Origin: Phycisphaera sp. | GTDB taxonomy: Bacteria; Planctomycetota; Phycisphaerae; Phycisphaerales; Zrk34 | Length of the DNA stretch: 34,445 nt | NCBI GenBank assembly: GCA_016125285.1 | Contig: WGMA01000029.1 | Span: forward strand, 1 to 34,445 | Reading direction: 5' to 3' | Shown here: positions 6,792-31,518 of the stretch, piece after piece | Numbering within the stretch: position 1 is the stretch's first letter | How the letters are laid out: the number at the start of each line of letters is the position of its first letter | Position numbers and translations under genes: made by a program | Notes under the pieces: model-generated | The model's input: the letters and a program-made list of their open reading frames with translations, nothing else | The model's database searches: none | What the model was told of the DNA's origin: nothing

Positions 6792-6846
6792 GGCACGCGC
6801 GTCACGCTCCGTCGCGCCGGCTCCACCGATAGCATCGACACCAATG

Positions 6847-6876
6847 AAAAACCGCCGCGCCGTGAGGCGCAGCGGT
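6847..6876 (-). terminator. Rho-independent terminator, minus strand
   Basis: The 11-bp arms ACCGCCGCGCC and GGCGCAGCGGT (one mismatch, GTGA loop; 6851-6876) are followed on the minus strand by TTTT. It lies just past the stop of the small acidic gene at 6913-7101 and could also halt topA transcription. Confidence 0.75.
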
Positions 6877-6912
6877 CGGGTCTGCGGTCAAGGTCGCCGA
6901 TCGGTCGCGCGA

Positions 6913-7101
6913 TCAGGCGTCTTCTTCGTCGTCGGATCGCAGGTGCTGCTCGATCTTCTCCGGCGAGGCGCCCTGGTCGGTCTTCGACGGGTCGTTCGTA
7001 TCCGGATCGACGTTGTAGAGGTCGATCAGACGCACCTTGTCCAGATCGATCATCGTCGTCTCGTCGAGCTTCTTCTTCTTGCCATCTTTTTCGTCGGCCA
7101 T
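6913..7101 (-). CDS. Small acidic hypothetical protein
   Basis: 62 residues, very hydrophilic: a Lys cluster (K-D-G-K-K-K-K) near the N terminus, a central M-I-D-L-D-K-V-R-L-I-D-L-Y-N-V segment that could form a short helix or strand, and an acidic end S-D-D-E-E-D-A. No known family recognised. It is believed real because an AGGAG Shine-Dalgarno stands about 11 nt before the ATG, a terminator lies directly downstream, and paired palindromes lie upstream at 7130-7157. No signal peptide or membrane segment. Function unknown; a small adaptor or regulator is possible but not shown. Confidence 0.68.
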   Translation of the reverse strand: MADEKDGKKKKLDETTMIDLDKVRLIDLYNVDPDTNDPSKTDQGASPEKIEQHLRSDDEEDA

Positions 7102-7129
7102 CGGTCCACCGTCTCCTGCGTTCGTCGCT

Positions 7130-18824: not shown

Positions 18825-18871
18825 CGCCCGCGATCCCGTAGCATGTGGGTACGAACGAGGACACCCAACCG

Positions 18872-21415
18872 ATGAAGGCTTCATTCATGACACTTGCGAT
18901 CCTGGCAGTCGCGGCGCTCGTCGCGGCGGCGTGGCACATGACGGACAGCGCGGCGATGGCCGCCGAGGGCGAGCACGGCAAGCCGCAGGGCAAGCCCAAT
19001 CACCTCATCCACGAGACCAGCCCGTACCTCCTGCAGCACGCGCACAACCCCGTCGACTGGTACCCGTGGGGCGACGAGGCGTTCGCGAAGGCGAAGAGGG
19101 AGAACAAGCCGATCTTCCTGTCGGTCGGCTACTCGACGTGTCACTGGTGCCACGTGATGGCGCACGAGTCGTTCGAGAACGACGGCGTGGCGAAGATCCT
19201 CAACGAGCACTACGTCTGCATCAAGGTCGACCGCGAGGAGCTGCCGGACATCGACGAGCAGTACATGCTGGCGACGATGGTGTGGTTCCAGATGACCGGT
19301 CAGGGGCGCGGCGGCGGCTGGCCGAACTCCGTGTGGCTGATGCCGGACGGTCGGCCGTGGTACGCCGGGACGTACTTCCCGCGCGAAGATCGCGGCGGGG
19401 CGCCGGGCTTCAAGACGATCCTCACGAAGCTCGCCGAGGCGTGGCGCGATCAGCCGCAGGACATCGACAAGCAGGCGACGGCGTTCGCCGAGGCGCTGAA
19501 GCGCGCCGGGCAGTTCGGGCAGGGGCCCGGCGCGGCGGCGGCGCAGCCGGTGTCGATGCAGGCGTTCAAGCAGGCGGCGAAGTACTTCGAGCAGGGCTAC
19601 GACGAGGCGCGCGGCGGGTTCGGCGGAGCGCCGAAGTTCCCGCCGCACGGCGCGCTGCGTGTGCTCATGCACGACTACGACACCTCCGCGGACCTCGGCA
19701 CGTTCGGCATCATCACGCACACGCTCGACGCGATGGCCGCCGGCGGCGTCTACGACCACGTCGGCGGCGGGTTCCACCGCTACTCGACCGACGCGCGGTG
19801 GCTGCTGCCGCACTTCGAGAAGATGCTCTACGACAACGCCCAACTCATCACCGCCTACACCGAGGGCCACCGCCTGTCCGACACGCCGGACTACGCACGC
19901 GTCGTCGCCGAGACGTTCGCCTGGCTGCAGCGCGAGATGACCGACCCGGCCGGCGGTTTCTACTCGGCGCAGGACGCCGACAGCGAGGGCGAAGAGGGCA
20001 AGTTCTACGTGTGGACGACGCAGGAGGTCGTCGACGTGCTCGGCGCCGACGACGGCGCGCTGTTCGCGAAGGTCTACGGCTTCACCGACGAGGGCAACTT
20101 CGTCGAGGAGGCGACGCGGAAGCGCACGGGCTCGAACATCCCGCACCTCGACAGGCCGATCGACGAGTGGGCGACGGAGCTGAAGGTCGACGCCGGGGAC
20201 CTGCGCAAGCGGCTGACGGCGATGCGTGCGAAGCTGCTGGCGGTGCGGGTCAAGCGTGTCTACCCGCACCTCGACGACAAGGTGCTCGCGTCGTGGAACG
20301 GGCTGATGATCGGCGCGCTGGCGCACGCGGGCAAGCACTTCGACAACGCCGCGTACACCGACGCCGCGGTCAAGGCCGCGGACTTCCTGCTCACGCAGAT
20401 GCGCGAGAAGGACGGCAAGCTGCACCGCACGTGGCGCAAGGGCGAGGCGAAGCTGCCCGGCTACCTCGACGACTACGCTTACGTGATCGACGGCCTGCTC
20501 GAGCTGCACCGCGCGACCGGCACGCAGCGCTGGGCCGACGCGGCGCAGCAGCTGGCCGACGTGATGGTCGCGGATTTCTACGACCTGAAGCACGGCGGGT
20601 TCTACATGACCAGCGCCGCACACGACGAGCTGCTGATCCGCTCGAAGGGCCTGACCGGCGGCGGCAACACGCCGAACGCCAACGGCGTGGCGGCGCAGGC
20701 GCTGATCGACCTGGCGGTGCTCACGCAGGACAAGAAGTACGCGGCGTACGCGGCGGGGACGCTGCACGCGATGGCGCCGACGATCTGGAACAATCCCCAC
20801 GCCGCCGAGTCGCTCGTGATGGCGGTCGCGCGGTTCTTCGAGCTGAACGACAAGCTGCCGTCGCCCGACGCGGCGGTGGCTGCGGCGACGGGCGCGGGCG
20901 AAGGCGCGGCGGGCGGCGACGCCGGCGACAAGCCCGACGTGTCGGTGCGCGTCGAGCCGGTGACCGTGCAGGTCTACCGGTCGCTCGACGCGGTCCAGCC
21001 CGGCGAGACGCTGAACATCGCGGTGCGTTACGTCGTCGACAAGACCTGGCACATCTACGCGCCCGACCCCGGCGGCGAGTTCCTGCTGCCAACGACGATC
21101 ACGCTCGCGGGGCCCGACGGCTGCAAGCTCGGCGAGCTGAAGTGGCCGAAGCCCGAGACGTTCACCGACAAGTCGCTCGGCAAGAAGATCAACGTCTACA
21201 GCGGCACGGCCACCGTGCTCGTGCCCGTGAAGATCCCCGCCGCCGCCAAGCCCGGCGAGATCACGCTGCAGCTGCGCTCACGCACGCAGGCGTGCGACGA
21301 CAGCAAGTGCCTCGCGCCGGAGCAGCACACGCTGGACGTGAAGATCACGATCGCCGCCGCGACGTCCGGCGAGCTGCGACACGCCAAGGTGTTCGAGCCG
21401 CTGGGCGTGAAGTGA
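18872..21415 (+). CDS. DUF255 thioredoxin-like protein fused to DsbD-alpha domain
   Basis: 847 residues from ATG 18872 (GAGGA about 11 nt upstream). A signal or anchor helix lies at about 4-22. Next is the DUF255/YyaL/SSP411 module: [24 protein letters not shown] and the redox motif S-T-C-H-W-C-H-V-M (C90, C93) in a thioredoxin fold, then an (alpha/alpha)6-barrel-like region with [10 protein letters not shown] and Y-D-N-A-Q-L. After an Ala/Gly linker, residues about 690-835 resemble the N-terminal DsbD-alpha domain: V-D-K-T-W-H-I-Y, and a redox pair in [12 protein letters not shown]. In DsbD this domain receives electrons from the membrane segment and passes them to periplasmic partners. The fusion implies exported thiol redox work. 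The enzymatic role of DUF255 is unknown. Confidence 0.9.
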
Positions 21416-21575
21416 CGCGACACGCGTGAGCGGCGTGCGACGACGCGATCGCGCACGCCCGGTGCGTTCGTCCGCAACCGTTCGATTCGCCCGCGCACGC
21501 GCCTACCATGTCGGCGACGACGCCGCGGCGGTGTCGGCTTCACCATCGCAACGACGACGCGACAGGAGTGACGTG

Positions 21576-23504
21576 ATGTTCCGATCGTGCATGGACGTGA
21601 CAGCGATCGCGTTGATCCTCGGCGTGCTGAGCGGCGTGACGACCGCGCACGCCGCGGACCCGGACGCGTCGCTGCCGCCCGTCGACCACATCCTCGACAA
21701 CCTCAAGCCGACGCACCCGCGCCTGCTCGTCGACGCCGGGGCGTTCGACGCGCTCAAGCAGCGTATCGAGACGGACGCCACGTCACGCCGGTGGTACGGG
21801 CAGATCGAGTCGTACGCGAAGTCGCTGATCGAGGAGCCGCCGAGCGATCGCGTGATCCCCGATGGCAAGCGGCTGCTGTCGACGAGCCGCGAGGTGCTGC
21901 GGCGTGTGTACGCGCTGGCGATGGTGTACCGCGTGACGGGCGATCGGCGGTACGTCGACCGCTGCTGGGCGGAGCTCGACGCGGTGTCGAGGTTCAAGGA
22001 CTGGAACCCGTCGCACTTCCTCGACGTCGCGGAGATGACGCACGCGTTCGCGATCGGTTACGACTGGCTGTACGACGCTTGGACCGACGCGCAGCGCAAG
22101 ACGATCCGCGAGGCGATCGTCCGCCAAGGCCTCACGCCGGGCCTCAACAGCTACTCCGGCAAGGAGCATTACGGCTGGTGGACCGACGCGGTGCACAACT
22201 GGAACCAGGTCTGCAACGGCGGGCTGACGCTGGGCGCGCTGGCGGTGGCGGACGAGGAGCCGGACATCGCCCGTCAGATCGTGCACGGCGCGCTGACGTC
22301 CGTGCCGAGGGCGATGCGTGAGTACGCGCCGGACGGCGCGTATCACGAGGGGCCGAGCTACTGGGGCTACGGCACGGAGTACAGCGTGCTGATGATCGCG
22401 GGGCTGGAGTCGGCGCTCGGCACGGATTTCGGCCTGAGCGGCTACGAAGGGTTTTCCAACACGGCGTGGTTCCCGGTGACGATGACCGGGCCAACCGGCC
22501 ACACGTTCAACTTCGCCGACGCGAAGTATCGTCCGCCGGGCCCGGCTTACGCGATGTTCTGGCTGGCGAACCGCTTCAGGCTGCCGGGCGTGACGCGCGT
22601 CGCGGCGGACTACGCCAAGCCGTACCCGCTCGATCTGTTGTGGTATCGGCCGGTGGCGGATGACGCGTCGGCGTCGGCCGCGCCGACGGCGACGTACTGG
22701 CGTGACCTCGAGGCGGTGGCGATGCGGACGTCGTGGGCGGACAAGGACGCGACGTGGGTGGCGTTCAAGGCCGGTTCGCCGGCGCTGAATCACGCGCACG
22801 CCGACGTGGGGTCGTTCGTGCTCGAGGCGTTGGGTCAGCGTTGGGCGGTCGACCTCGGGCCGGACAACTACAACATGCGGGGCTACTTCGACCGCGGCAA
22901 GACACGCTGGACGTACTACCGGTTGCGCGCCGAGTCGCACAACACGCTGGTGATCAACCCGGACGCCGGGCCGGATCAGTCGCCGAGCGGATCGGCCAAG
23001 GTCGTACGCTACGACGTGGACGACGCGGCGTGGCGGTTCGGCGTGATGGACCTGACGCCGGTGTACGCCGGTCGCGCGGTGACGCGTGTGCGGCGCGGGA
23101 TCGCGCTGGCCGGGCCGCGCGTCGTGGTGCGCGACGAGATCGACGTGAAGAGCGGCGGGGCGGTGGATCTGCTGTGGTCGATGCAGACGACGGCGGCGGT
23201 GGCGATCGCCGACGACGGTCGCGGCGCGGTGTTGACGCAGCGCGGCCGGACGCTGGTCGCGACGCTGCTGTCCCCGGCCGACGCGCGGTTCAGCGTGCGC
23301 GCCGCCGAGCCGCTGCCGACGTCGCCGAACCCGCGCGGGCAGGCGGGTAACGGCGTGACGCGCACGCTGACGATCCGGCTGCCGCGGTTCGGCGGCGGGG
23401 CGTTGTCGGTGTTGTTCACGCCGATCGCGCAGGGCGCGGCGGACGCGCCGCCGGTCGCCGCCGAGGTCCGGGCGTCGGCGTCGCGAGCGCTCGCGGACTG
23501 GTAA
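21576..23504 (+). CDS. Secreted heparinase II/III-like polysaccharide lyase
   Basis: 642 residues from ATG 21576, with AGGAG 9 nt upstream and a signal peptide ending T-T-A-H-A-A. The N-terminal alpha-toroid has H-P-R-L-L-V and H-N-W-N-Q-V-C-N-G-G (about residue 206), a typical Asn/Trp substrate-cleft motif, then Y-H-E-G-P-S-Y-W-G-Y-G. The C-terminal heparinase II/III beta-sheet domain carries N-H-A-H-A-D-V-G-S-F-V-L-E-A-L-G-Q-R-W-A-V-D-L-G (about 404-428) and a later R-A-E-S-H-N-T-L. Such enzymes cleave uronic-acid polysaccharides (alginate, heparin, ulvan-like) by beta-elimination; the substrate cannot be read from sequence. Frame extensions to 21426 lack family features. Confidence 0.9.
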   Translation: MFRSCMDVTAIALILGVLSGVTTAHAADPDASLPPVDHILDNLKPTHPRLLVDAGAFDALKQRIETDATSRRWYGQIESYAKSLIEEPPSDRVIPDGKRLLSTSREVLRRVYALAMVYRVTGDRRYVDRCWAELDAVSRFKDWNPSHFLDVAEMTHAFAIGYDWLYDAWTDAQRKTIREAIVRQGLTPGLNSYSGKEHYGWWTDAVHNWNQVCNGGLTLGALAVADEEPDIARQIVHGALTSVPRAMREYAPDGAYHEGPSYWGYGTEYSVLMIAGLESALGTDFGLSGYEGFSNTAWFPVTMTGPTGHTFNFADAKYRPPGPAYAMFWLANRFRLPGVTRVAADYAKPYPLDLLWYRPVADDASASAAPTATYWRDLEAVAMRTSWADKDATWVAFKAGSPALNHAHADVGSFVLEALGQRWAVDLGPDNYNMRGYFDRGKTRWTYYRLRAESHNTLVINPDAGPDQSPSGSAKVVRYDVDDAAWRFGVMDLTPVYAGRAVTRVRRGIALAGPRVVVRDEIDVKSGGAVDLLWSMQTTAAVAIADDGRGAVLTQRGRTLVATLLSPADARFSVRAAEPLPTSPNPRGQAGNGVTRTLTIRLPRFGGGALSVLFTPIAQGAADAPPVAAEVRASASRALADW

Positions 23505-23510
23505 CGCTGG

Positions 23511-23930
23511 TCAGCGCGACCGGCCGGTGTCGATCCAGTGCTCGGCTTCCTCGTAGCTGGTGCAGATGCGCGTGTCGAACGTGATCGCGCCCTCGGACAT
23601 GCTCTCCCACATGCGTCCGAGGCCGTAGGCCAGGTCGTTGGTCATGACGATGGCGCAGCGTCCGTCGCCGATCATCCCGGTGAACCGCATGACGATCTGC
23701 GCGATCTGCCAGATCTCGTCGTGCGTGATGCCGGTGAAGTCGAGGTGGGAGTGGTCGACGAGGAGGTTCGCGCCGTTGACCCACTGCGGGTGTTCGACGA
23801 GGGCGCGCACGAGCCGCTCGAATCCTTCGACCTCGGCGGTGTCGAAGGTCCGCATGACCATCGTCGCCGGGTCTTGGCGGAACTCCAGTTCGTGTCGCAT
23901 ATGGCCTTGTCCCGAAACGTCCTTCGCCAA
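23511..23930 (-). CDS. SpoIIAA/STAS-like small protein
   Basis: 139 residues from ATG 23930 (or 129 from M-R-H-E-L-E-F at 23900, equally plausible). The pattern A-T-M-V-M-R-T-F-D-T-A-E-V-E-G-F, L-L-V-D-H-S-H-L-D-F-T-G-I-T and C-A-I-V-M-T-N-D-L-A-Y-G-L-G-R-M-W-E matches the SpoIIAA-like (STAS-fold) families that occur as free-standing cytosolic proteins. The phosphorylatable Ser/Thr of anti-sigma-antagonists is not obvious. Role unknown. It is convergent with the lyase gene (6-bp gap) and divergent from the receiver-MshEN pair. Confidence 0.72.
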   Translation of the reverse strand: MAKDVSGQGHMRHELEFRQDPATMVMRTFDTAEVEGFERLVRALVEHPQWVNGANLLVDHSHLDFTGITHDEIWQIAQIVMRFTGMIGDGRCAIVMTNDLAYGLGRMWESMSEGAITFDTRICTSYEEAEHWIDTGRSR

Positions 23931-24128
23931 ACCCCAAAACGGCTGTGCCCACTATACGGCGTGGCCCCGCCGCTGTCAGGCGTTGTCGGACGGGGCGGGC
24001 GGCAAGTCGGAAAATCCCCTACATCCCGTGGGGCCGCGTTGGATTAGCATACTGGTGGATGAGGATTGATTCGCGAGGCGCATGTCACACCGATCGCGAA
24101 TCGACGAACGGGAAAGCGGGTGAGGACC

Positions 24129-25466
24129 ATGGCGACCAGACCCATCGTTTACATCGTGGAAACGGGTGTCGAGACGACGAAGCTGCTCAAGACGATGACG
24201 CTGCTTCGGCAGGAAGTGGAGTTGGCGCATTTCGACACGCCGGAGGCTTTTCAGCAGGCGTACGACCCGGACCGCCCGGGCTGCCTGATCCTCGACATGC
24301 ACGTCGAGGGTTACGACGGTCACGACGTGATCCGTCAGCTCAACGAGCGGATGTTCAGCCTGCCGACGATCGTGCTGATCAACGCGGGGGACGTGATCAC
24401 GGCGCGCGACGTGCTGCGCGCCGGGGCGACGGAGTTCCTCGAGAAGCCGGTGCAGATCCACTACCTGATCGAGCGCGTGCACGATTCGCTGAAGGCGTCG
24501 ACGGCGTCGATCATGCGGGAGGGCGAGAAGTCGGCCGCGGAGGCGGAAAAGGTCGGGCCGATCGGCACGCTGATGATCGACCAGGGGACGCTGACGGTGG
24601 AGCAGGTCGAGGCGATCCTCGCGTATCAGGCGCATCACAACGACAAGGCGTTCGGCGAGCTGGCGATGGAGATGTTCGCGGTGGACCCGCTGGACATCTG
24701 GCGGGCGCGTGCGGTGCAGCTGCTGCCGCTGCTGAAGGTGGTGAACCTCAGCGAGCTGACGCCGTCGACCGAGGCGCTGGGCGCGATCGACGCCGGTGAG
24801 GCGGCGACGTACTGGGTGCTGCCGCTGAGCGTCGAGGGCGATCACCTGGTGATCGCGACGACGGCGAACCGCCTGGGCGAGGCGATGATGAAGTGCCACT
24901 CGATCTTCCGGCACACGCCGATCAAGTTCGTGCTGGCGGCGCCGGTGAAGCTGCGGGGGGCGATCGAGAAGTGCTACGGCCAGCCGCCGGTGACGTACTC
25001 CGACACCGGTCCGCTGGGCGACCTGCAGCCGGAGCGTCGGGCGCGGAAGGCGACGCCGGAGGAGCCGGCGCCGGACGACGTGCAGGTGCAGTGCAGCCGG
25101 TGCGACGAGAAGTTCTATGTTGAGCCGGACATGATCGGCAAGCGTGTCGGCTGCCCGGCGTGCGGCGAGCCGGTGCCGGCGCGTCGCGCCGAGGACCTGC
25201 CCGAGCCGCTGACGCTGCCGGGCTCGGAACGCCCCGACGCCGACCCCGAGCTGTCGCTGGAAGTCGTGCACTTCGGCGACGTGAACTCGGGCGACCTGTC
25301 GATCACGTTCCGCTGCGAGGTGTGCGACGGGCACGTCCGCGTGAGCGGGGCGGCGGCGGGGCGGCGGGTGTTCTGCCCGCACTGCAAGTACGCGACGACC
25401 GTGCCGAGCGGCCTGTCCAACCCGCGCGTCGTGACCGTCGAGCCCCGCGCCGGGCAGCCCGCCTAG
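24129..25466 (+). CDS. Receiver-MshEN-zinc ribbon protein, copy 1 (Asp retained)
   Basis: 445 residues from ATG 24129. Order: receiver domain (4-125), GspE/PilB-type N-terminal domain (144-284), two zinc ribbons (C322-x2-C325...C342-x2-C345; C396-x2-C399...C416-x2-C419). The receiver keeps the phospho-acceptor D56 (L-I-L-D-M) and K106 (L-E-K-P), but the acidic pair reads E11-T12 and the usual Thr/Ser is N85. The MshEN-type motif I spans 144-167 (P-I-G-T-L-M-I-D-Q-G...Q), motif II 174-197 (A-F-G-E-L-A...Q). There is no ATPase domain, so this is not a secretion or pilus motor. It is probably a cytosolic signal-output protein, perhaps binding a nucleotide second messenger or partner. 77 bp upstream of its paralogue on the same strand. 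Confidence 0.85.
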   Translation: MATRPIVYIVETGVETTKLLKTMTLLRQEVELAHFDTPEAFQQAYDPDRPGCLILDMHVEGYDGHDVIRQLNERMFSLPTIVLINAGDVITARDVLRAGATEFLEKPVQIHYLIERVHDSLKASTASIMREGEKSAAEAEKVGPIGTLMIDQGTLTVEQVEAILAYQAHHNDKAFGELAMEMFAVDPLDIWRARAVQLLPLLKVVNLSELTPSTEALGAIDAGEAATYWVLPLSVEGDHLVIATTANRLGEAMMKCHSIFRHTPIKFVLAAPVKLRGAIEKCYGQPPVTYSDTGPLGDLQPERRARKATPEEPAPDDVQVQCSRCDEKFYVEPDMIGKRVGCPACGEPVPARRAEDLPEPLTLPGSERPDADPELSLEVVHFGDVNSGDLSITFRCEVCDGHVRVSGAAAGRRVFCPHCKYATTVPSGLSNPRVVTVEPRAGQPA

Positions 25467-25543
25467 CCATGGGGTGATTTACGTATCGCCATGCGGGTCG
25501 GGATGTGTACAATCTCCGCCGTCACAATCGGAGGAGATGACCC

Positions 25544-26893
25544 ATGCCCGAGCACCGTCCGCAGATCTTTGTCGTCGAGGAGGAGCCGTGTGTCTACCCG
25601 GCCCTGACGCGTCACTCGCTGCTGCCGCAGGCGATGACGATCCGTCGCTTCGACTCCGCCGAAGACATGCTGGCTGTCGAACTGCCGCACGCGCCGTCGG
25701 TGCTGGTTTACGCGTTGCGTCTGCCGGGCATCGACGGGTCGGAGCTGCTGTCGGAGCTGCGGGGGCGTGGTCGGGCCATGCCGACGATCGCGATGGTGGA
25801 CCGCGGCGACACCGACGCGGCGCACCGCGCCCTGGCGGGCGGCGCCGACGAGTTCATGGAGATGCCGGTCGATGCGGACCTGCTGCTCGACCGCGTGTGT
25901 CGCGCCGTGAAGCGCGCCGTGCGGGTCAAGCCCGCCCAGGCCGGGGAGCAGCGTATCGGCGGCGTGCTGATCGAGCACGGCGTGCTGACGCCGGAGCAGG
26001 TCGACGCGATCATCAAGCTGCAGGCGAAGCGCAACGAGCCGTTCGGCGACCTGGCCGAGGAGATGTTCGACGTCGCCGAGGAAGACATCTGGCGGGCGCG
26101 GGCGCAGCAGATCCTGCCGCTGCTGCCGATGGTGAACGTCGAGACCGACCCGCCGCAGCGCGACGCGCTGGACCTGATCACGCCGGAGGAGGCGTCGACG
26201 TACTGGCTGCTGCCTCTGCGTCTGGAGAAGGACCGGCTGGTGATGGCGACGTCGGCGGGGCGGCTGGCGGGGGCGCTGATCAAGTGCGACGACATCTTCA
26301 AACGCCTGCCGGTGAAGTTCGCGTTGTCGGCGCCGCGGCGTCTGCGCAACGCGATCCAGAAGCACTACGGCATCATGCCGCTGATCCTCGACCAGACCGA
26401 TCTGCCGACCGACTTCGACACCGAGCCCGATCCGGTGACGCCGAATCGCGCGCCGAGATCGGCGACGGACGATTCGGTGACGGTGCGGTGCACGTGGTGC
26501 GACGAGCCGATCGAGGTGGAGCCGGGCGAACTGGGCCGACGAGTGGGCTGCCCGTCGTGCGGCGAGCCGACGCTCGCGGCGGTGATCAAGCCGACCGCGT
26601 TCCCGACGCCCAAGCCCGTCGCGTCGAAGTCGCGCCCCGATGCGCCGCCGATGTCGAAGCCCGGCGAGTCGACCGGGATCTTCCGCACGACGCCGCAGTA
26701 CGGCGACCACAGCGCCGCCGAACTGAGCATCCGCTTCGCCTGTGAACACTGCGGCGAGCGGCTGAAGATCAGCGGTGTCTACGCGGGCAAACGCGTCAAG
26801 TGTCCCAAGTGCGGCGAGGGCACGAGCGTGCCGGGCGCCGCGGCGCACCCGCGCGTCGTCAGCATCAAGCTCGCGATGGATTCCGACGACTGA
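25544..26893 (+). CDS. Receiver-MshEN-zinc ribbon protein, copy 2 (pseudo-receiver)
   Basis: 449 residues, paralogous to the gene before it along its whole length. The start has a strong GGAGGAG Shine-Dalgarno about 7 nt upstream, and a possible TACAAT -10 box lies at 25508-25513, so it may be separately transcribed. The receiver (about 7-125) has Ala57 where the phospho-acceptor Asp should be (V-Y-A-L-R-L-P-G-I-D-G) and Met107 in place of the conserved Lys (M-E-M-P). It is therefore a pseudo-receiver. MshEN motif I (137-160, R-I-G-G-V-L-I-E-H-G-V-L-T...Q) is close to consensus; motif II (166-189, P-F-G-D-L...Q) is less so. Zinc ribbons: C316/C319 with C336/C339, and C400/C403 with C420/C423. 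Function unknown. Confidence 0.86.
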   Translation: MPEHRPQIFVVEEEPCVYPALTRHSLLPQAMTIRRFDSAEDMLAVELPHAPSVLVYALRLPGIDGSELLSELRGRGRAMPTIAMVDRGDTDAAHRALAGGADEFMEMPVDADLLLDRVCRAVKRAVRVKPAQAGEQRIGGVLIEHGVLTPEQVDAIIKLQAKRNEPFGDLAEEMFDVAEEDIWRARAQQILPLLPMVNVETDPPQRDALDLITPEEASTYWLLPLRLEKDRLVMATSAGRLAGALIKCDDIFKRLPVKFALSAPRRLRNAIQKHYGIMPLILDQTDLPTDFDTEPDPVTPNRAPRSATDDSVTVRCTWCDEPIEVEPGELGRRVGCPSCGEPTLAAVIKPTAFPTPKPVASKSRPDAPPMSKPGESTGIFRTTPQYGDHSAAELSIRFACEHCGERLKISGVYAGKRVKCPKCGEGTSVPGAAAHPRVVSIKLAMDSDD

Positions 26894-26927
26894 CGAGCGG
26901 TCGACGCCGCAAGCCGCACCGCGTCGC

Positions 26928-27947
26928 TCACGCCTTCTTGTAGAGGTGGCCCACCCACTCGGCGTAGCCGTTGAGGTAGAGCGTCTCACGCAGCGCGCCG
27001 TTGGGGATCACCCGCTCCGCCGCCTGGCTCCAGCGCGGGTGCGGCACGGCCGGGTTGACGTTGGACTCGAACGGGAACTCCGTGGGCTGCAGCGTCTCCC
27101 ACAGCGTCGTCGGCTTCTTCTCCACCAGCTCGATCTTCACGATCGACTTCGGCGACTTGTACCCGTACTTCCACGGCGTGACGATCCGGAACGGCGCGCC
27201 GTTCTGACGCGTCAGCGGCTGGCCGTACAGACCCGTGCAGCCGAGGCACAGCTCGTTCATCGCCTCGGGCATCGTCAGCCCCTCGAAGAACGGCCACGGG
27301 AAGTGACGCGTCGACGGGTCCTTCGTCACGCCGACCATCACCTTCTTGTCGACCGCCGAGAAGAACCGTACGTACTTCGCCGACGCCTTCGGCTCGACCT
27401 TCGCCAGCAGCTTGTGCAGCGGGAAGCCCGTCCACGGCACGTCCATCGCCCACGCCTCGACGCAGCGGTGGCGGTACGTGCGCTCCTCCAGGTCGAGCTT
27501 GTGCAGCGCGTCGATGTCGAACTTCTGCGGCTTGAGGCACTCGCCGGTGATCTCGACCGTCCACGGGTCGACGTCGAAATCCTTCGCGAGCTTCCACACG
27601 CGGCGCTTGTCCTGCGTGAACTCGTAGAAGTTGTTGTACGTGAACGCCGCCATCTTGTCGGTGAGGAACGCGCCGCCCGGCAGCGGGTACTTGTCGCTCC
27701 GCTTGAACGGGTACAGCTTGAGGATCTCTTCGCGGCTGACGCCCGGCAGCTTGGCGACCTTCGCGACGTTGCCGCCGAACAGGTCGTCGAGGAGCTGCGC
27801 GTCGGCGGCAGGGGTGATTCCGGTGACCGCGCCGGCGCCGATCAGCGCCGTGCCCAGTCCCCACTGCTTGATGAGCTGTCGTCGGTTGAGGTACGCGCTC
27901 TCGGGCGTCGGCTCGACCTTGGGCAGCCGCGGGCGGACGGATGACAT
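26928..27947 (-). CDS. msrP: Methionine sulfoxide reductase catalytic subunit MsrP (YedY-like)
   Basis: 339 residues from ATG 27947. Periplasmic molybdopterin enzyme of the sulfite-oxidase fold that repairs oxidised Met in exported proteins. A Tat signal lies at about 20-50 (Y-L-N-R-R-Q-L-I-K-Q-W-G-L-G). The mature part has Y-N-N-F-Y-E-F, W-T-V-E-I-T-G-E-C, and R-H-R-C-V-E-A-W-A-M with the molybdenum ligand Cys162. G-F-P-L, P-W-K-Y-G-Y-K-S-P-K-S-I and N-P-x-x-P-H-P-R-W-S-Q-A are specific to MsrP. Its usual haem membrane partner MsrQ is not in the window, so the electron donor is unknown. It follows the SulP gene by 99 bp on the same strand. Confidence 0.95.
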   Translation of the reverse strand: MSSVRPRLPKVEPTPESAYLNRRQLIKQWGLGTALIGAGAVTGITPAADAQLLDDLFGGNVAKVAKLPGVSREEILKLYPFKRSDKYPLPGGAFLTDKMAAFTYNNFYEFTQDKRRVWKLAKDFDVDPWTVEITGECLKPQKFDIDALHKLDLEERTYRHRCVEAWAMDVPWTGFPLHKLLAKVEPKASAKYVRFFSAVDKKVMVGVTKDPSTRHFPWPFFEGLTMPEAMNELCLGCTGLYGQPLTRQNGAPFRIVTPWKYGYKSPKSIVKIELVEKKPTTLWETLQPTEFPFESNVNPAVPHPRWSQAAERVIPNGALRETLYLNGYAEWVGHLYKKA

Positions 27948-28046
27948 CGTGTGAACTGCTCCCTTTACCTGCCCCGTCGGAAGTGTGTGACTGGGGAGCA
28001 TTGTACGACGCGGCGTGCGGTTTTCCATGCCGGGCTGACGCGTTGT

Positions 28047-29864
28047 CTATTTCGCGGTCGCGGCGGCGGGCGCCGGGTCGGGCGCGGCGCCGCTGTGACC
28101 GGCGGCGTACCAGCGCGCCAGGTCCATCGCGGCGTCGAACGTGCCGCAGACGTGCACGCGCTCGCGGTCGCGCTTCAGGTGGCTCTTGGCCAGCAGCTTC
28201 AGCGGCTGCGGCTGCACGCCCGCGAGGATGATCTGCACGCCCATGCCTTCGAGCCGCTTCATCGCCGACTCGAGGTTTACCAGGCCCGTCGCGTCCATCA
28301 CCGGCGCCTCGCGCAGGTCGAGCACGACGACGCGCACGCCGTTGCCCAGCGTCCGCAGCGCCGACATCGCGCGCTGCGCCGCGCCGAAGAACAGCGGCCC
28401 GCCGATCTCGTACACCACCACGCCCTTCGGCAGCGGCCCGACCAGCGGGTCGTGCTGCTCGTGGATCAGCCGCACGTCGGCGATGTCCGCCATGCGCTTC
28501 ATGAACAGCAGCGACGCCAGCACGACGCCGACCGACACGGCGACGACCATGTCGAAGATCACCGTCAGCGCGAAGCACGTGACGAGCACGAGGATGTCGC
28601 TGCGCGGCGCGACGCGGCAGGTGTGCACGAAGTGCCGCGCCTCGGACATGTTCCACGCCACGATGATCAGCAGCGCCGCCATCGCCGCCATCGGCAGGTA
28701 CCCCAGCAGCGGGGCGAGCAGGATCACCGCCAGCAGCACGAACACCGCGTGCACGGCCGCGGCGACCGGCGAGCGGCCGCCGCTGCGGATGTTCAGCGCC
28801 GTCCGCGCGATCGCGCCGGTCGCGGCGATGCCGCCCATCAGCGGCGCGGCGAGGTTGCCCACGCCCTGCGCCACCAGCTCCGCGTCGGGGTCGTGCTGCG
28901 CGCCCGTCATGCCGTCGGCCACCACCGCCGACAGCAGCGACTCGATCGCACCGAGCATCGCGATCGCCGTCGCCGACGGGATCAGGTCACGCACCAGCGA
29001 CCAGCTCAGCTCCAGCGGCGCGCCGCCCGGCCCGCCCCACGACCACGGCCACCGCAACGACGGCGCCGCCTGCGGGATGCCGTGACCCGTCGCGCCGTCC
29101 GCGCCGACATACGTGAACCGCTCGGCCACCGTCTGCGCGTCGAACCCGTCGACGCACAGGTGCAGCAGCCACGCCGACACGCCCGCCAGCGACAGCGCCA
29201 CCAGCGCCGGCGGGGCCTTACGCGTCAGCTTCGGCAGCGTGATCAACACCGCCAGCGTGCCCAGCCCGATCACGAGGTCCGGCAGGCGCAGCGTCGGCAT
29301 CGCCTCGAACAGCGCGCCGACCTTCTCGACGTAGTGCTCGGGCATGTGCTCGACGTGCAGGCCGAGCAGGTCCTTGATCTGCAGCGTCGCGATCACCACG
29401 GCGATGCCGGACGTGAAGCCCGTCGTCACCGGGTGCGGGATGAACTGGATGAGCCGCCCGAAGCGGAATACGCCCATGAGCACGAGGATCACGCCGGCCA
29501 TGAAGCCCGCGACGAGCAGCCCGCCCAGGCCGTACTGCGCGCTGATCGGCGCGAGGATCACCACGAACGCCGCCGTCGGGCCCGACACCTGCACGCGCGA
29601 GCCGCCCATCAGCGCGATCAGTCCGCCGGCCACGATCGCCGTGTACAGCCCGTGCTCCGGCGGCACGCCCGACGCGATCGCCAGCGCCATCGACAGCGGC
29701 ACGGCCACCAGCCCGACCACCACGCCGGCCAGCGCGTCCTCGCGGAACCGCCGCGCCGTGTAGCCCTCATGCAGCGACTCGCGCATCGCCGTGGCGATCG
29801 GCACGCGACGCGTGGACTCGTGACGCGGCACGAGCCGCGCCTCACTCGGATTCTCGCTTTTCAT
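28047..29864 (-). CDS. SulP/SLC26-family anion transporter with STAS domain
   Basis: 605 residues from ATG 29864 (ATG 29786 gives M-R-E-S-L-H). Inner-membrane SLC26/SulP carrier with multiple transmembrane helices, P-L-S-M-A-L-A-I-A-S-G-V-P-P-E-H-G-L-Y-T-A-I (SulP signature), Q-V-S-G-P-T-A-A-F and P-H-P-V-T-T-G-F-T-S-G-I. A cytosolic STAS domain at about 495-600 has V-V-L-D-L-R-E-A-P-V-M-D-A-T-G. Substrate (sulfate, bicarbonate, dicarboxylate) cannot be read. A conserved-looking 5' leader with two hairpins and an extended -10 promoter lies upstream, suggesting that the frame extension to 30020 is not translated. Likely co-transcribed with msrP. Confidence 0.92.
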   Translation of the reverse strand: MKSENPSEARLVPRHESTRRVPIATAMRESLHEGYTARRFREDALAGVVVGLVAVPLSMALAIASGVPPEHGLYTAIVAGGLIALMGGSRVQVSGPTAAFVVILAPISAQYGLGGLLVAGFMAGVILVLMGVFRFGRLIQFIPHPVTTGFTSGIAVVIATLQIKDLLGLHVEHMPEHYVEKVGALFEAMPTLRLPDLVIGLGTLAVLITLPKLTRKAPPALVALSLAGVSAWLLHLCVDGFDAQTVAERFTYVGADGATGHGIPQAAPSLRWPWSWGGPGGAPLELSWSLVRDLIPSATAIAMLGAIESLLSAVVADGMTGAQHDPDAELVAQGVGNLAAPLMGGIAATGAIARTALNIRSGGRSPVAAAVHAVFVLLAVILLAPLLGYLPMAAMAALLIIVAWNMSEARHFVHTCRVAPRSDILVLVTCFALTVIFDMVVAVSVGVVLASLLFMKRMADIADVRLIHEQHDPLVGPLPKGVVVYEIGGPLFFGAAQRAMSALRTLGNGVRVVVLDLREAPVMDATGLVNLESAMKRLEGMGVQIILAGVQPQPLKLLAKSHLKRDRERVHVCGTFDAAMDLARWYAAGHSGAAPDPAPAAATAK

Positions 29865-29893
29865 CTCGAAACACACCGCGCGAACTGCCTGCG

Positions 29894-29943
29894 CCCGACA
29901 CGCGTCGGGCCGCCGGGTGTGTTGGCAGGAGGGTTCGACCCTC
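29894..29943 (-). promoter_or_regulatory. Two leader hairpins upstream of SulP gene
   Basis: Hairpin 1 at 29929-29943: GAGGGT-TCG-ACCCTC, perfect 6-bp arms. Hairpin 2 at 29894-29909: CCCGAC-ACGC-GTCGGG, perfect 6-bp arms. Both would lie in the 5' leader of the SulP mRNA (start 29864), 30-79 nt before the start. They could be translation or attenuation control elements; no riboswitch class recognised. Confidence 0.4.
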
Positions 29944-30008
29944 AAGAAAACGACCGGAGCCGGCTCGGGCCGCTCCGCGCCAAAAATGACACGGTGTACG
30001 GCACTCCC

Positions 30009-30017
30009 ATCATACCA
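30009..30017 (-). promoter_or_regulatory. Extended -10 promoter for SulP gene
   Basis: On the minus strand the sequence TGGTATGAT gives TG-n-TATGAT, an extended -10 element, with no good -35 at 17 bp. Transcription would start near 30002, giving a leader of about 138 nt that contains both hairpins. Confidence 0.42.
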
Positions 30018-30095
30018 CACGCGTCAAGCCGCCAGACGCCGGTGAAATCCCTATATTTCAACGACCGGCGTATGATGACCCGGCAACGCCCCTGC

Positions 30096-30133
30096 AATGG
30101 AAAATGGAAAACGGCAAATGGAAAATGGCAAAT
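30096..30133 (+). repeat. AATGGAA heptamer array carrying start codons
   Basis: Five head-to-tail units (AATGGAA, AATGGAA, AACGGCA, AATGGAA, AATGGCA) plus AAT. Four units contain ATG (30097, 30104, 30118, 30125), and two of these (30097 and 30118) are in frame with the downstream exported protein. Confidence 0.95.
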
Positions 30134-31035
30134 ACCTGGCCGCCGCGCTGCTGTTCCTCACCGCGAACGTCACCGCTGCGCCGCCCACCGAGCCGTTCTT
30201 CGACCGCCACATGTGGTCCGACGGCAAGGCGGAGGTCAACCTCTACGACGCGACGGAGGTCCGCTATGGCGTCGCCCGCAAGGCGACCGAGGCGGTGCTG
30301 ATCTTCGTCAAGGAAGACCACCGCGCCGCCGACATGGTCAAGGCCGACGACGCGTCGAAGGCCGACCTCCCGGCGGTGAAGCTCAACTGGTCCGTCGAGG
30401 TGCCCACCGGCATCTACACCTACCGCCAGCAGGCGTCGGTCTTCCTCAACCGCAAGACCAACGTCCCGTTCCGTGAGACGTTCGCGAGTCACGAGTGGTG
30501 CGGCAACACGTGGAAGGACCTGCGGTGGGACGGGACGAAGTGCGACTACAAGTGGTCGAGCTATTTCGGTGACGAAGCGGACGGAGACAAGCAACTCAAG
30601 TTTTATGGCGCCACACCCGACTCGAAATCCGGCGTACTGTTTTCCGATGCCCTGCCCGCGATCGTCCGCACGCTCCAATACGACGAACTGGGCAACGGCG
30701 ATGGCAAGTGGTACGGCGCGACGGGCTGTGCGTTTACGCTCTGGTCGAATCGCGCGACGCCTGACGCCATATCGCACTGTGTCGGGTTCAATGCGACCGG
30801 CGGGCACAAGACCACCGTCCCCGCTGGCACATTCACCGCGTGGCGCATCGTCGCGCACTACACGGACAACGTTGAAGACGTCTACTACGTCGAGGACGGC
30901 CCGCAGCGGCGGCTGCTGAAGATGCAACGCGCCGACGGCGCCGTGTACGAGCTGCGCAAGTCGATGCGTGTCGATTACTGGAACCACCACGACCCCGGCG
31001 AAGAGTCGCTCAAGCAGGGCGCGGGCGTGAAGTGA
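30118..31035 (+). CDS. Exported protein of unknown function
   Basis: 305 residues from ATG 30118 (312 from 30097). The signal peptide is M-E-N-G-K-Y-L-A-A-A-L-L-F-L-T-A-N-V-T-A-A, cleaved near A-A-P-P. The mature protein has D-R-H-M-W-S-D-G-K-A-E-V-N-L-Y, many aromatic residues, R-E-T-F-A-S-H-E-W-C-G-N-T-W, C-V-G-F-N-A-T-G-G-H and a C-terminal stretch V-P-A-G-T-F-T-A-W-R-I-V-A-H-Y-T-D-N-V-E-D-V-Y. The last is reminiscent of DUF3108-like beta-rich periplasmic proteins, but the match is weak and not claimed. The initiation codons lie in a heptamer array, so unit number alters which ATG is in frame. Divergent from the SulP gene; convergent with the DCC protein. Confidence 0.75.
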   Translation: MENGKYLAAALLFLTANVTAAPPTEPFFDRHMWSDGKAEVNLYDATEVRYGVARKATEAVLIFVKEDHRAADMVKADDASKADLPAVKLNWSVEVPTGIYTYRQQASVFLNRKTNVPFRETFASHEWCGNTWKDLRWDGTKCDYKWSSYFGDEADGDKQLKFYGATPDSKSGVLFSDALPAIVRTLQYDELGNGDGKWYGATGCAFTLWSNRATPDAISHCVGFNATGGHKTTVPAGTFTAWRIVAHYTDNVEDVYYVEDGPQRRLLKMQRADGAVYELRKSMRVDYWNHHDPGEESLKQGAGVK

Positions 31036-31060
31036 TGTTTTGCTCGGGCGGCGCGCCGTT

Positions 31061-31083
31061 CCCCTCTCCCGCCGGGAGAGGGG
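31061..31083. terminator. GC-rich palindrome between convergent genes
   Basis: CCCCTCTCCC-GCC-GGGAGAGGGG is a perfect 10-bp-arm hairpin lying between the stop at 31035 and the stop at 31084-31086. No T-run follows on either strand, so it is a candidate bidirectional terminator or transcript-end stabiliser rather than a proven rho-independent site. Confidence 0.55.
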
Positions 31084-31518
31084 CTAATCGATCTTGCACG
31101 CGCCGTTGTCGCACGTCTTGCCGAGTCGCTGGCGGTTGCGGGCGATCCAAGCGTAGCCCGCGCGGCAGATCTGCTTGAGCACCGGCACGCGGTACAGCCA
31201 CGCGAACCACCGCCACCACCCCACACGCCGCGCGATGCCGTACACCGCGTCGGCGCCGATGTCGATCGTCCCGTCCACGTGCACCAGCCGCATTCCCGTG
31301 TTGAAGTCGCCCTCGGCCAGCTTCGGGAACCGCTGTTCCAGCCCCTCGGCCTGGCGCGGCACGTACTCGAACACGTCGTGCCGATCCATCCGCCGGATCT
31401 TCGCGATCTGCTGGCGGCAGAACGGGCAGTCGCCGTCGAACACGATCACCGGCCGCGCGGGCGTCGCGCCCGTAGCGTGCGGCGTGTCGGCGTCGGTGTG
31501 TGTCGTTGCCGTGCTCAT
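31084..31518 (-). CDS. DCC-family (DUF393) thiol-disulfide oxidoreductase-like protein
   Basis: 144 residues from ATG 31518 (ATG 31527 adds three). After a Thr/Ala-rich N terminus comes V-I-V-F-D-G-D-C-P-F-C, the DCC motif with C31 and C34 in thioredoxin-like position. Further family features are I-R-R-M-D-R-H, D-A-V-Y-G-I-A-R-R-V and W-R-W-F-A-W-L-Y-R-V-P-V-L. The C terminus has Cys near the end (K-T-C-D-N-G-A-C). Members are predicted redox proteins with few characterised functions. Cytosolic, no signal peptide. Confidence 0.88.
   Translation of the reverse strand: MSTATTHTDADTPHATGATPARPVIVFDGDCPFCRQQIAKIRRMDRHDVFEYVPRQAEGLEQRFPKLAEGDFNTGMRLVHVDGTIDIGADAVYGIARRVGWWRWFAWLYRVPVLKQICRAGYAWIARNRQRLGKTCDNGACKID

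Follow-up and report, generated by a model that had tools for sequence, protein, structure and literature searches.

What does an MshEN domain do in a protein without a motor? The domain is known mainly as a switch of pilus and secretion ATPases. In the Phycisphaera sp. contig analyzed here (WGMA01000029.1; the whole stretch of 34,445 nucleotides is called the window), two adjacent genes place it between a receiver and a pair of zinc ribbons. With no motor attached, the output of such a protein must run through protein contacts.

The two genes are tandem paralogues on the forward strand, 39–40% identical and separated by 77 bp. Copy 1 runs from an ATG at 24129 to a stop at 25466 (445 aa) and copy 2 from an ATG at 25544 to a stop at 26893 (449 aa). 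BLASTP aligns them over 447 columns at 39% identity (E 5e-100), so the adjacent full-length paralogues of an earlier note on this DNA stand, with exact coordinates. The mechanical ORF of copy 1 begins further 5', at TTG 24066. Taken together, the ORFs, Pfam, BLASTP and motif reading give the order receiver, MshEN, zinc ribbon, zinc ribbon for copy 1, and the same order with a pseudo-receiver for copy 2. The claimed absence of a motor domain also holds: Pfam finds no T2SSE ATPase domain (PF00437) in either copy at E ≤ 1. In the gap 5' of copy 2 lies a promoter-like match, by consensus only, TCGCCA-16-TACAAT (25486..25513, +; 9/12). Rfam has no match within 20000–31500.

The receivers score 49.0 bits (copy 1) and 46.4 bits (copy 2) against Pfam Response_reg, well above chance and above the cut-off of 30.2 bits. 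In copy 1 (aa 7–117; 24147..24479, +), alignment to 1yio, 3kto and FixJ places the phospho-acceptor Asp56 at 24294–24296 (+) and Lys106 is retained, yet Ile84 occupies the Thr/Ser position and Thr12 replaces one of the acidic pair. In copy 2 (aa 8–118; 25565..25897, +), alignments to NtrC (1dc7) and a StyR-type receiver (1yio) put Ala57 at the Asp position (25712–25714, +), Met107 in place of Lys and Val85 in place of Thr/Ser. Phosphorylation of both receivers is ruled out by these three losses. The phospho-input once proposed for the pair thus fails for copy 2 and survives, with reservations, for copy 1: judging by the residues, copy 1 could accept a phosphoryl group and copy 2 could not.

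Both central domains exceed the Pfam gathering cut-off for MshEN (PF05157; 23.1 bits), with 34.5 bits for copy 1 and 34.3 bits for copy 2. The matches cover the C-terminal subdomain (24732..24986, + and 26123..26371, +, respectively). The two 24-residue motifs associated with c-di-GMP binding can be read in each copy. In copy 1, motif I (aa 144–167; 24558..24629, +) has P1, I2, G3, V17, L21 and Q24, and motif II (aa 174–197; 24648..24719, +) has A1, F2, G3, I17, R21 and Q24. In copy 2, motif I (aa 137–160; 25952..26023, +) has R1, I2, G3, G10, V17, I21 and Q24, and motif II (aa 166–189; 26039..26110, +) has P1, F2, G3, F10, I17, R21 and Q24. The spacer between the motifs is 5 residues in copy 2 and 6, one extra, in copy 1. 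All eight contact residues (Gly3 and Gln24 of both motifs in both copies) are present. Position 1, where R, K or L is expected in both motifs, is R and P in copy 2 and P and A in copy 1. Large hydrophobic residues are expected at 17 and 21; motif I fits (V17, L/I21), and in motif II I17 fits and R21 fails. The earlier description of a near-consensus motif I in copy 2 (R-I-G...G...Q) and a degenerate motif II in both copies is therefore accurate, the degeneracy being P or A at position 1 and R at 21.

Other comparisons are less uniform. With phmmer, copy 2 is the only copy that matches PilF (E 8.3e-7). Against the NCBIfam c-di-GMP-motif model NF053729 (cut-off 38 bits), the domain alone scores 21.0 bits in copy 1 and 32.2 bits in copy 2, both below the cut-off, and the whole of copy 2 scores 29.5 bits. 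Structures predicted from two-row inputs, for copy 2 at full length and for its MshEN domain, have low confidence (mean pLDDT 43.2 each). Pfam, phmmer and the profile collinearity with 5htl described below support the proposed identity of the central domain: on its sequence, it is an MshEN domain with an atypical motif II.

Each zinc ribbon consists of two CxxC knuckles. In copy 1 these are C322, C325, C342 and C345 (25092..25163, +) and C396, C399, C416 and C419 (25314..25385, +); in copy 2 they are C316, C319, C336 and C339 (26489..26560, +) and C400, C403, C420 and C423 (26741..26812, +). Pfam zinc-ribbon matches are weak and below cut-offs in both copies, and the ribbons are read from the cysteine pattern. 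With all the cysteines kept and the Pfam scores of the other domains, the composition claimed for each copy (receiver, MshEN and two CxxC ribbons) is upheld.

Such conservation bears on whether the genes have any present function. That they are lineage-specific fusions decaying after duplication seems to us very improbable. Several conserved positions are gone, and the architecture occurs in a single genome, the sole one of its genus sampled. But both frames are open at 40% identity, the copies retain 16/16 ribbon cysteines (eight per copy) and the eight Gly3/Gln24 residues, and they resemble each other most in MshEN (about 50% identity).

The distribution is narrow. Among best candidates scored and matches listed, no other sampled genome has the full architecture (300 genomes of the order, 396 of the class and 391 of the phylum, in overlapping samples). 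Candidates scored per genome were the best 4–5 with alignment A1 and the best 13 with alignment A2; one search covered all 91. Two apparent receiver–MshEN matches were rejected: one (G223) belongs to a regulator of the usual FixJ type, the other (G033) to a receiver protein without MshEN. A contig scan with patterns mainly derived from the receiver gave 30 loci, and MshEN was examined in one of them (L084).

The MshEN domain itself is widespread. A family that includes the window domain is matched in 273/301 genomes of the order (272 of the 300 others), counting best candidates per genome, and all 38 members checked are readable as stand-alone proteins. Among the best candidates scored, the window genome yields no family members besides the two fusions. 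Viral contigs searched with a stand-alone protein and with alignment A4 gave no match. Alignment A2 joins the 38 stand-alone members to the two window copies; its stand-alone rows come from best-match lists, which biases them toward the family core. Only 6/161 columns are invariant across the 40 rows: four hold Gly3 and Gln24 of motifs I and II, and the others a single Ala and a single Pro. The same six are invariant among 149 columns in 59 stand-alone rows. The probability of finding all four contact positions among the invariant columns by chance is 7.6e-7, a guide only, as it assumes independent columns. In the MshE complex, the polar c-di-GMP contacts are attributed to the motif Gly and Gln, and MshE G11L/G40I shows no response to c-di-GMP (PMC5013675). 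In PilF, the two Gln, together with the Gly of motif II, were important (PMC12002112). The invariance of these residues supports the possible cyclic-dinucleotide output that had been suggested.

The A2 profile is collinear with Vibrio cholerae MshE (5htl; E 5.1e-11), with the c-di-GMP-binding domain of PilF (8pfa; E 7.9e-10) and with three PilB entries, spanning positions 2–139/145 of 150 in all five matches. All 40 members match the NCBI c-di-GMP-motif model at E ≤ 1e-3. Individual stand-alone scores straddle the cut-off of 38 bits (L010 50.0; L007 32.7; L137 28.9). Motif II position 1 is Pro in 58/59 stand-alone members, as in copy 2, and position 21 is Trp in 56/59 and Arg in both window copies. 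PilF GSPII-C, a c-di-GMP binder, also carries Pro at motif II position 1 (PMC11731258); a value of 460 nM is attributed to this domain by a process of elimination (PMC11731258; PMC12002112).

The explanation that we prefer, at roughly even confidence, is that both proteins are c-di-GMP effectors without enzymatic output, acting as c-di-GMP-gated adaptors. Their core would descend from the stand-alone MshEN protein kept by most sampled members of the order; the lineage would have gained a FixJ/NtrC-type receiver N-terminally and two zinc ribbons C-terminally, followed by duplication. The ligand would lie across both 24-residue motifs of a four-helix bundle. The receiver, tied to bundle helix 1 by a short linker (about 14–20 residues), may alter the accessibility of the site or the orientation of the C-terminal half, and the zinc ribbons would bind a partner protein. 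Copy 1 could take a phosphoryl group, and the receiver of copy 2 may serve dimerization instead. MshEN membership by sequence and the invariant Gly and Gln favor c-di-GMP as the ligand. Arg at motif II position 21 weakens this reading, as the residue there is large and hydrophobic in known binders; XpsE, in which binding is lost, has Arg at position 21 of motif I among other changes. The scores of both copies below the NF053729 cut-off also weaken it, and so do those of L007 and L137, whereas L010 passes. Ligand binding by copy 1 in particular is made less probable by P and A at the first positions of motifs I and II and by the 6-residue spacer.

These changes would also suit a different role, which we consider unlikely but worth weighing: the MshEN part no longer binds nucleotide and is a docking domain, as in GspE/XpsE. 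Mimicking a pilus or secretion ATPase at its N-terminus, the proteins would compete for the membrane platform as ATPase-less brakes under receiver control. A target exists, as the window genome has three further MshEN proteins, all with a T2SSE ATPase domain (PF00437). Contact positions 1 and 21 of motif II are altered in both copies, and the MshEN domain of XpsE is an example of lost binding. However, the non-binder XpsE has both Gly and the second Gln changed, whereas Gly3 and Gln24 of both motifs persist in 59/59 stand-alone rows and in both copies. In addition, no secretion gene was found among the window proteins scanned.

Genomic context favors the c-di-GMP-gated adaptors in part. In 5/10 loci of the same taxonomic family, the stand-alone gene is convergent with a GGDEF (diguanylate cyclase, DGC) gene, with ORF ends that abut or leave a gap of at most 92 bp. 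GGDEF is matched in 297/301 genomes of the order, which likewise argues for c-di-GMP, and the window genome has 3 GGDEF, 2 HD-GYP-type HD_5 and 2 PilZ. Two observations weaken the case: the fetched flanks of 10/10 stand-alone loci outside that taxonomic family hold no DGC relative, and three of the four GGDEF-less genomes (G182, G228 and G270; 80–95% complete) nonetheless carry the stand-alone protein. A quick tree built on 63 rows makes the window copies sisters (support 100). They sit on a long stem outside the DGC-linked group (support 97 for its seven rows) and closer to L031/L134/L012/L010, the latter placement being weakly supported. This position weakens both a derivation of the fusions from the DGC-linked group and the c-di-GMP reading for the copies; the DGC link thus supports the ligand of the family, not the direct ancestry of the copies. 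The search for the architecture and its neighbors, which the earlier note had called for, found no conserved neighborhood either: no window protein other than the MshEN copies clusters with the 20 stand-alone neighborhoods, counting clusters present in at least three loci.

The losses in the two copies are complementary, which would suit a coincidence detector. Copy 1 would be phosphorylated but bind ligand poorly, copy 2 would do the opposite, and the two would form a heterodimer. Copy 1 keeps Asp56/Lys106, but its motifs begin with P and A, and copy 2 keeps the motif I Arg and has Ala57/Met107; the difference in c-di-GMP-motif scores (21.0 versus 32.2 bits) and the adjacency of the genes on one strand, 77 bp apart, agree with this. 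We nevertheless think it improbable: the receiver of copy 1 is itself atypical (Ile84, Thr12), and the putative pair comes from a single genome, which precludes comparison across species. Slightly less probable again is a split detector, with phosphoryl and c-di-GMP subunits whose joined ribbons act when both signals meet, that would have replaced the little-studied stand-alone MshEN protein, taken here as a dedicated c-di-GMP receptor common to almost all of the order.

How unusual is the module? Receiver-joined MshEN was reported in 2016, and Bd2402, an MshEN-containing response regulator of Bdellovibrio bacteriovorus, is a reported c-di-GMP binder (PMC5013675). Like the window copies, such proteins combine MshEN with a two-component response regulator and lack a secretion ATPase. 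Compared by that description, the window copies differ in adding two zinc ribbons and in the dead receiver of copy 2. The literature searched yielded no zinc-ribbon version, so the novelty claimed earlier lies in the ribbons and in the restriction to a single one of the sampled genomes, not in the receiver–MshEN pairing. The MshEN domains of MshE, PilB and PilF (GSPII; PF05157; 5htl, 8pfa) share whole-domain collinearity, the two 24-residue motifs and, with copy 2, the 5-residue spacer; the window copies lack their ATPase and have Pro/Ala for R/K/L at position 1 and Arg at position 21 of motif II.

The nearest relatives found are the stand-alone proteins (27–39% identity to copy 2), with the same motif I and the same P-F-G motif II. 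Unlike the window copies, they have neither receiver nor ribbons, carry Trp at motif II position 21 and, within the same taxonomic family, often adjoin a DGC gene. No name was found for this order-wide family, which is a better lead than the fusion pair itself. If it binds c-di-GMP, it would be the most widely shared candidate c-di-GMP receptor in the group and would test how much motif II drift is tolerated (Pro at 1, Trp/Arg at 21). Direct ITC and crystallography would be within reach, given the small size of its proteins.

MshEN-CheX proteins, mentioned in PMC5013675, have a likeness in L084 (6262–7128). PF05157 is unmatched there, and the MshEN-like motifs come from inspection by eye. The L084 gene lies behind one for a single-domain receiver, linking the motifs to two-component signaling, and its output domain, unlike the ribbons of the window copies, is CheX (Pfam).

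Two adjacent genes on the plus strand, at 24129–25466 (copy 1, 445 aa) and 25544–26893 (copy 2, 449 aa), encode proteins with 39% identity over their whole length. Pfam matches a receiver (49.0 bits in copy 1, 46.4 bits in copy 2) and an MshEN domain (34.5 and 34.3 bits; cut-off 23.1) in each. Two CxxC...CxxC ribbons follow MshEN, with all cysteines present in both copies and Pfam ribbon scores under cut-off in both; no Pfam match to an ATPase domain was found in either. The earlier note's description, adjacent full-length paralogues joining a receiver, MshEN and two zinc ribbons without an ATPase, holds on this evidence. A promoter-like match lies inside the 77-bp intergenic gap, and no Rfam family matched in window 20000–31500. 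The flanks carry a small protein without a Pfam match (23511–23930, minus strand), a heparinase-like protein (plus strand), a molybdopterin oxidoreductase and a SulP-STAS transporter (both minus strand), nothing that names a pathway. The oxidoreductase gene (26931–30020) lies beside the transporter gene, convergent with copy 2; that they are a sulfite/sulfate pair is a guess. At 18845–21412 (plus strand), a DUF255/thioredoxin domain (Thioredox_DsbH) and, C-terminal to it, a DsbD_N domain stand in a single protein.

The full architecture was found only in the window's own genome in a search of 61 genomes. With the best four to five candidates per genome scored, a full-length match was likewise confined to it in the samples from the order (301 genomes), the class (397 genomes, E <= 1e-28) and the phylum (392 genomes, E <= 1e-20), the last with 17 matching genomes, of which the 16 others matched partially. 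The genus is represented by one genome; since the samples overlap and only those best candidates were scored, a divergent relative could have escaped notice. The module is thus unusual, as had been proposed, in its full form among the sampled genomes, but not in joining a receiver to MshEN: PMC5013675 mentions both REC-MshEN and MshEN-CheX. No report of MshEN with a zinc ribbon was found in the open-licence literature searched. At L084, a locus of a Planctomycetota MAG (5866–7128), a single-domain receiver gene is followed by a gene with several tandem MshEN-like motifs (by eye) and a CheX domain.

The residues that define a working receiver are well established. The copy 1 receiver, alignable with StyR-type and FixJ receivers, has the acceptor Asp56 and Lys106, with Ile84 in the Thr/Ser place and Glu11-Thr12 in that of the acidic pair. 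The copy 2 receiver, alignable with NtrC, has Glu-Glu as its acidic pair and Ala57, Met107 and Val85 in the places of Asp, Lys and Thr/Ser; by its sequence it is a pseudo-receiver. The suggested phospho-input may therefore survive in copy 1, with the two departures named, and fails in copy 2. With the acceptor in one copy only, the pair might be read as a split coincidence detector, which we consider unlikely.

For MshE, PMC5013675 describes polar contacts to c-di-GMP in each 24-residue motif, made by Gly3 together with the residue after it and by Gln24, and hydrophobic contacts from motif positions 1, 2, 17 and 21. In copy 2, motif I reads R-I-G and Q and motif II P-F-G and Q, at exact spacing; copy 1 has P-I-G and Q, a 6-residue spacer, then A-F-G and Q. 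Arg stands at motif II position 21 in both. The near-consensus motif I of copy 2 and the degenerate motif II of both copies were recognized correctly from the start. Copy 2 shares Pro at the first position of motif II with PilF GSPII-C, a c-di-GMP binder according to PMC11731258 and PMC12002112. The NCBI c-di-GMP-motif model scores 21.0 bits in copy 1 and 32.2 bits in copy 2, both below its cut-off of 38. With the changes at motif II positions 1 and 21 on one side and the Gly and Gln of every motif on the other, a non-binding docking domain is a less likely alternative for the MshEN part; decay of the pair, with its substitutions but also its complete cysteines, is improbable.

We give about an even chance to the two proteins being c-di-GMP-gated adaptors. 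MshEN helix 1 starts some 20 residues past the end of the Pfam receiver match in copy 2 and some 27 residues past it in copy 1. In GSPII-A of PilF, the site is blocked with the help of an elongated helix 1 that bears a cap (PMC12002112), which by analogy suggests a way for the receiver to act on MshEN: by stiffening or shifting the joint to helix 1, it could open or close the c-di-GMP site. Because there is no enzyme or DNA-binding domain, the zinc ribbons are the likely output surface.

MshEN-only matches occur in many relatives (search of 61 genomes). The 38 stand-alone members analyzed (loci L007–L064, blastp E <= 1e-10, differing in sequence) all have a possible start codon 1–9 codons before motif I and end 140–177 residues past its first residue, and are therefore readable as single-domain proteins; many frames remain open further upstream. 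Aligned with the two copies (A2, 161 columns), they leave six invariant columns: Gly3 and Gln24 of both motifs, an Ala and a Pro. Across 59 stand-alone rows (149 columns) the invariant columns are again these six, and motif II has Pro at position 1 in 58, Phe at position 2 in 58 and Trp at position 21 in 56. The A2 profile matched the MshE, PilF and PilB structures collinearly, and at E <= 1e-3 the c-di-GMP-motif model matches 40 of 40 A2 members and PF05157 matches 37. Counting the window's own genome, 273 of the order's 301 genomes have an A2 match (E <= 1e-20); the own genome has two, taken to be the window copies because its other PF05157 matches all lie in three T2SSE ATPases. In the small single-domain proteins at L007–L064 and L104–L152, the Gly/Gln c-di-GMP contacts are nearly the sole invariant residues. 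We found no description of these proteins.

Twenty stand-alone neighbourhoods were fetched, 10 from the window's own family and 10 from other families. The gene is convergent with a GGDEF gene in five own-family loci (L133, L136, L137, L139 and L142), the ORFs overlapping slightly at their ends or lying up to 92 bp apart; none of the 10 neighbourhoods from other families has a relative of that GGDEF protein. One inherited arrangement may lie behind all five. In the L137 protein Pfam gave GGDEF alone (143 bits), and the first part looks receiver-like. In all five loci a further uncharacterised protein of about 200 aa precedes the GGDEF gene on the same strand, without a Pfam match in L133. The window genome's version of the L137-type diguanylate cyclase (DGC; L153, 8013–9224, minus strand) aligns from residue 126 of its relative onward only; the N-terminal receiver-like part is missing, as is the neighbouring protein. 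GGDEF is present in 297 of the 301 genomes of the order. The four without a match (G182, G228, G270 and G288; 80–95% complete) are from one genus (g35 for the first three), and G182, G228 and G270 keep an A2 match, which counts against a c-di-GMP link. Missing contigs could explain this; these three have either incomplete assemblies or another ligand.

The window genome has three GGDEF, two HD_5 and two PilZ genes, no EAL that we could find, and one MshEN ATPase (L156) whose two motifs are well formed and lie 29 residues apart. The genome's DGC on contig C84, 45% identical to that of L137, keeps the flanking genes seen in relatives: on one side a MiaB-like gene and one of 143 aa, on the other an aminotransferase-like gene (names by eye). 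The stand-alone MshEN gene is missing beside it, with no remnant found by tblastn, and the place corresponding to the second stand-alone gene of G007 (L141) has no such gene (L158). A quick tree grouped copies 1 and 2 (support 100) on a long stem, outside the DGC-linked group and nearer the second kind. These sequence comparisons point to a genome that has lost its stand-alone genes and keeps the domain in two fusions only.
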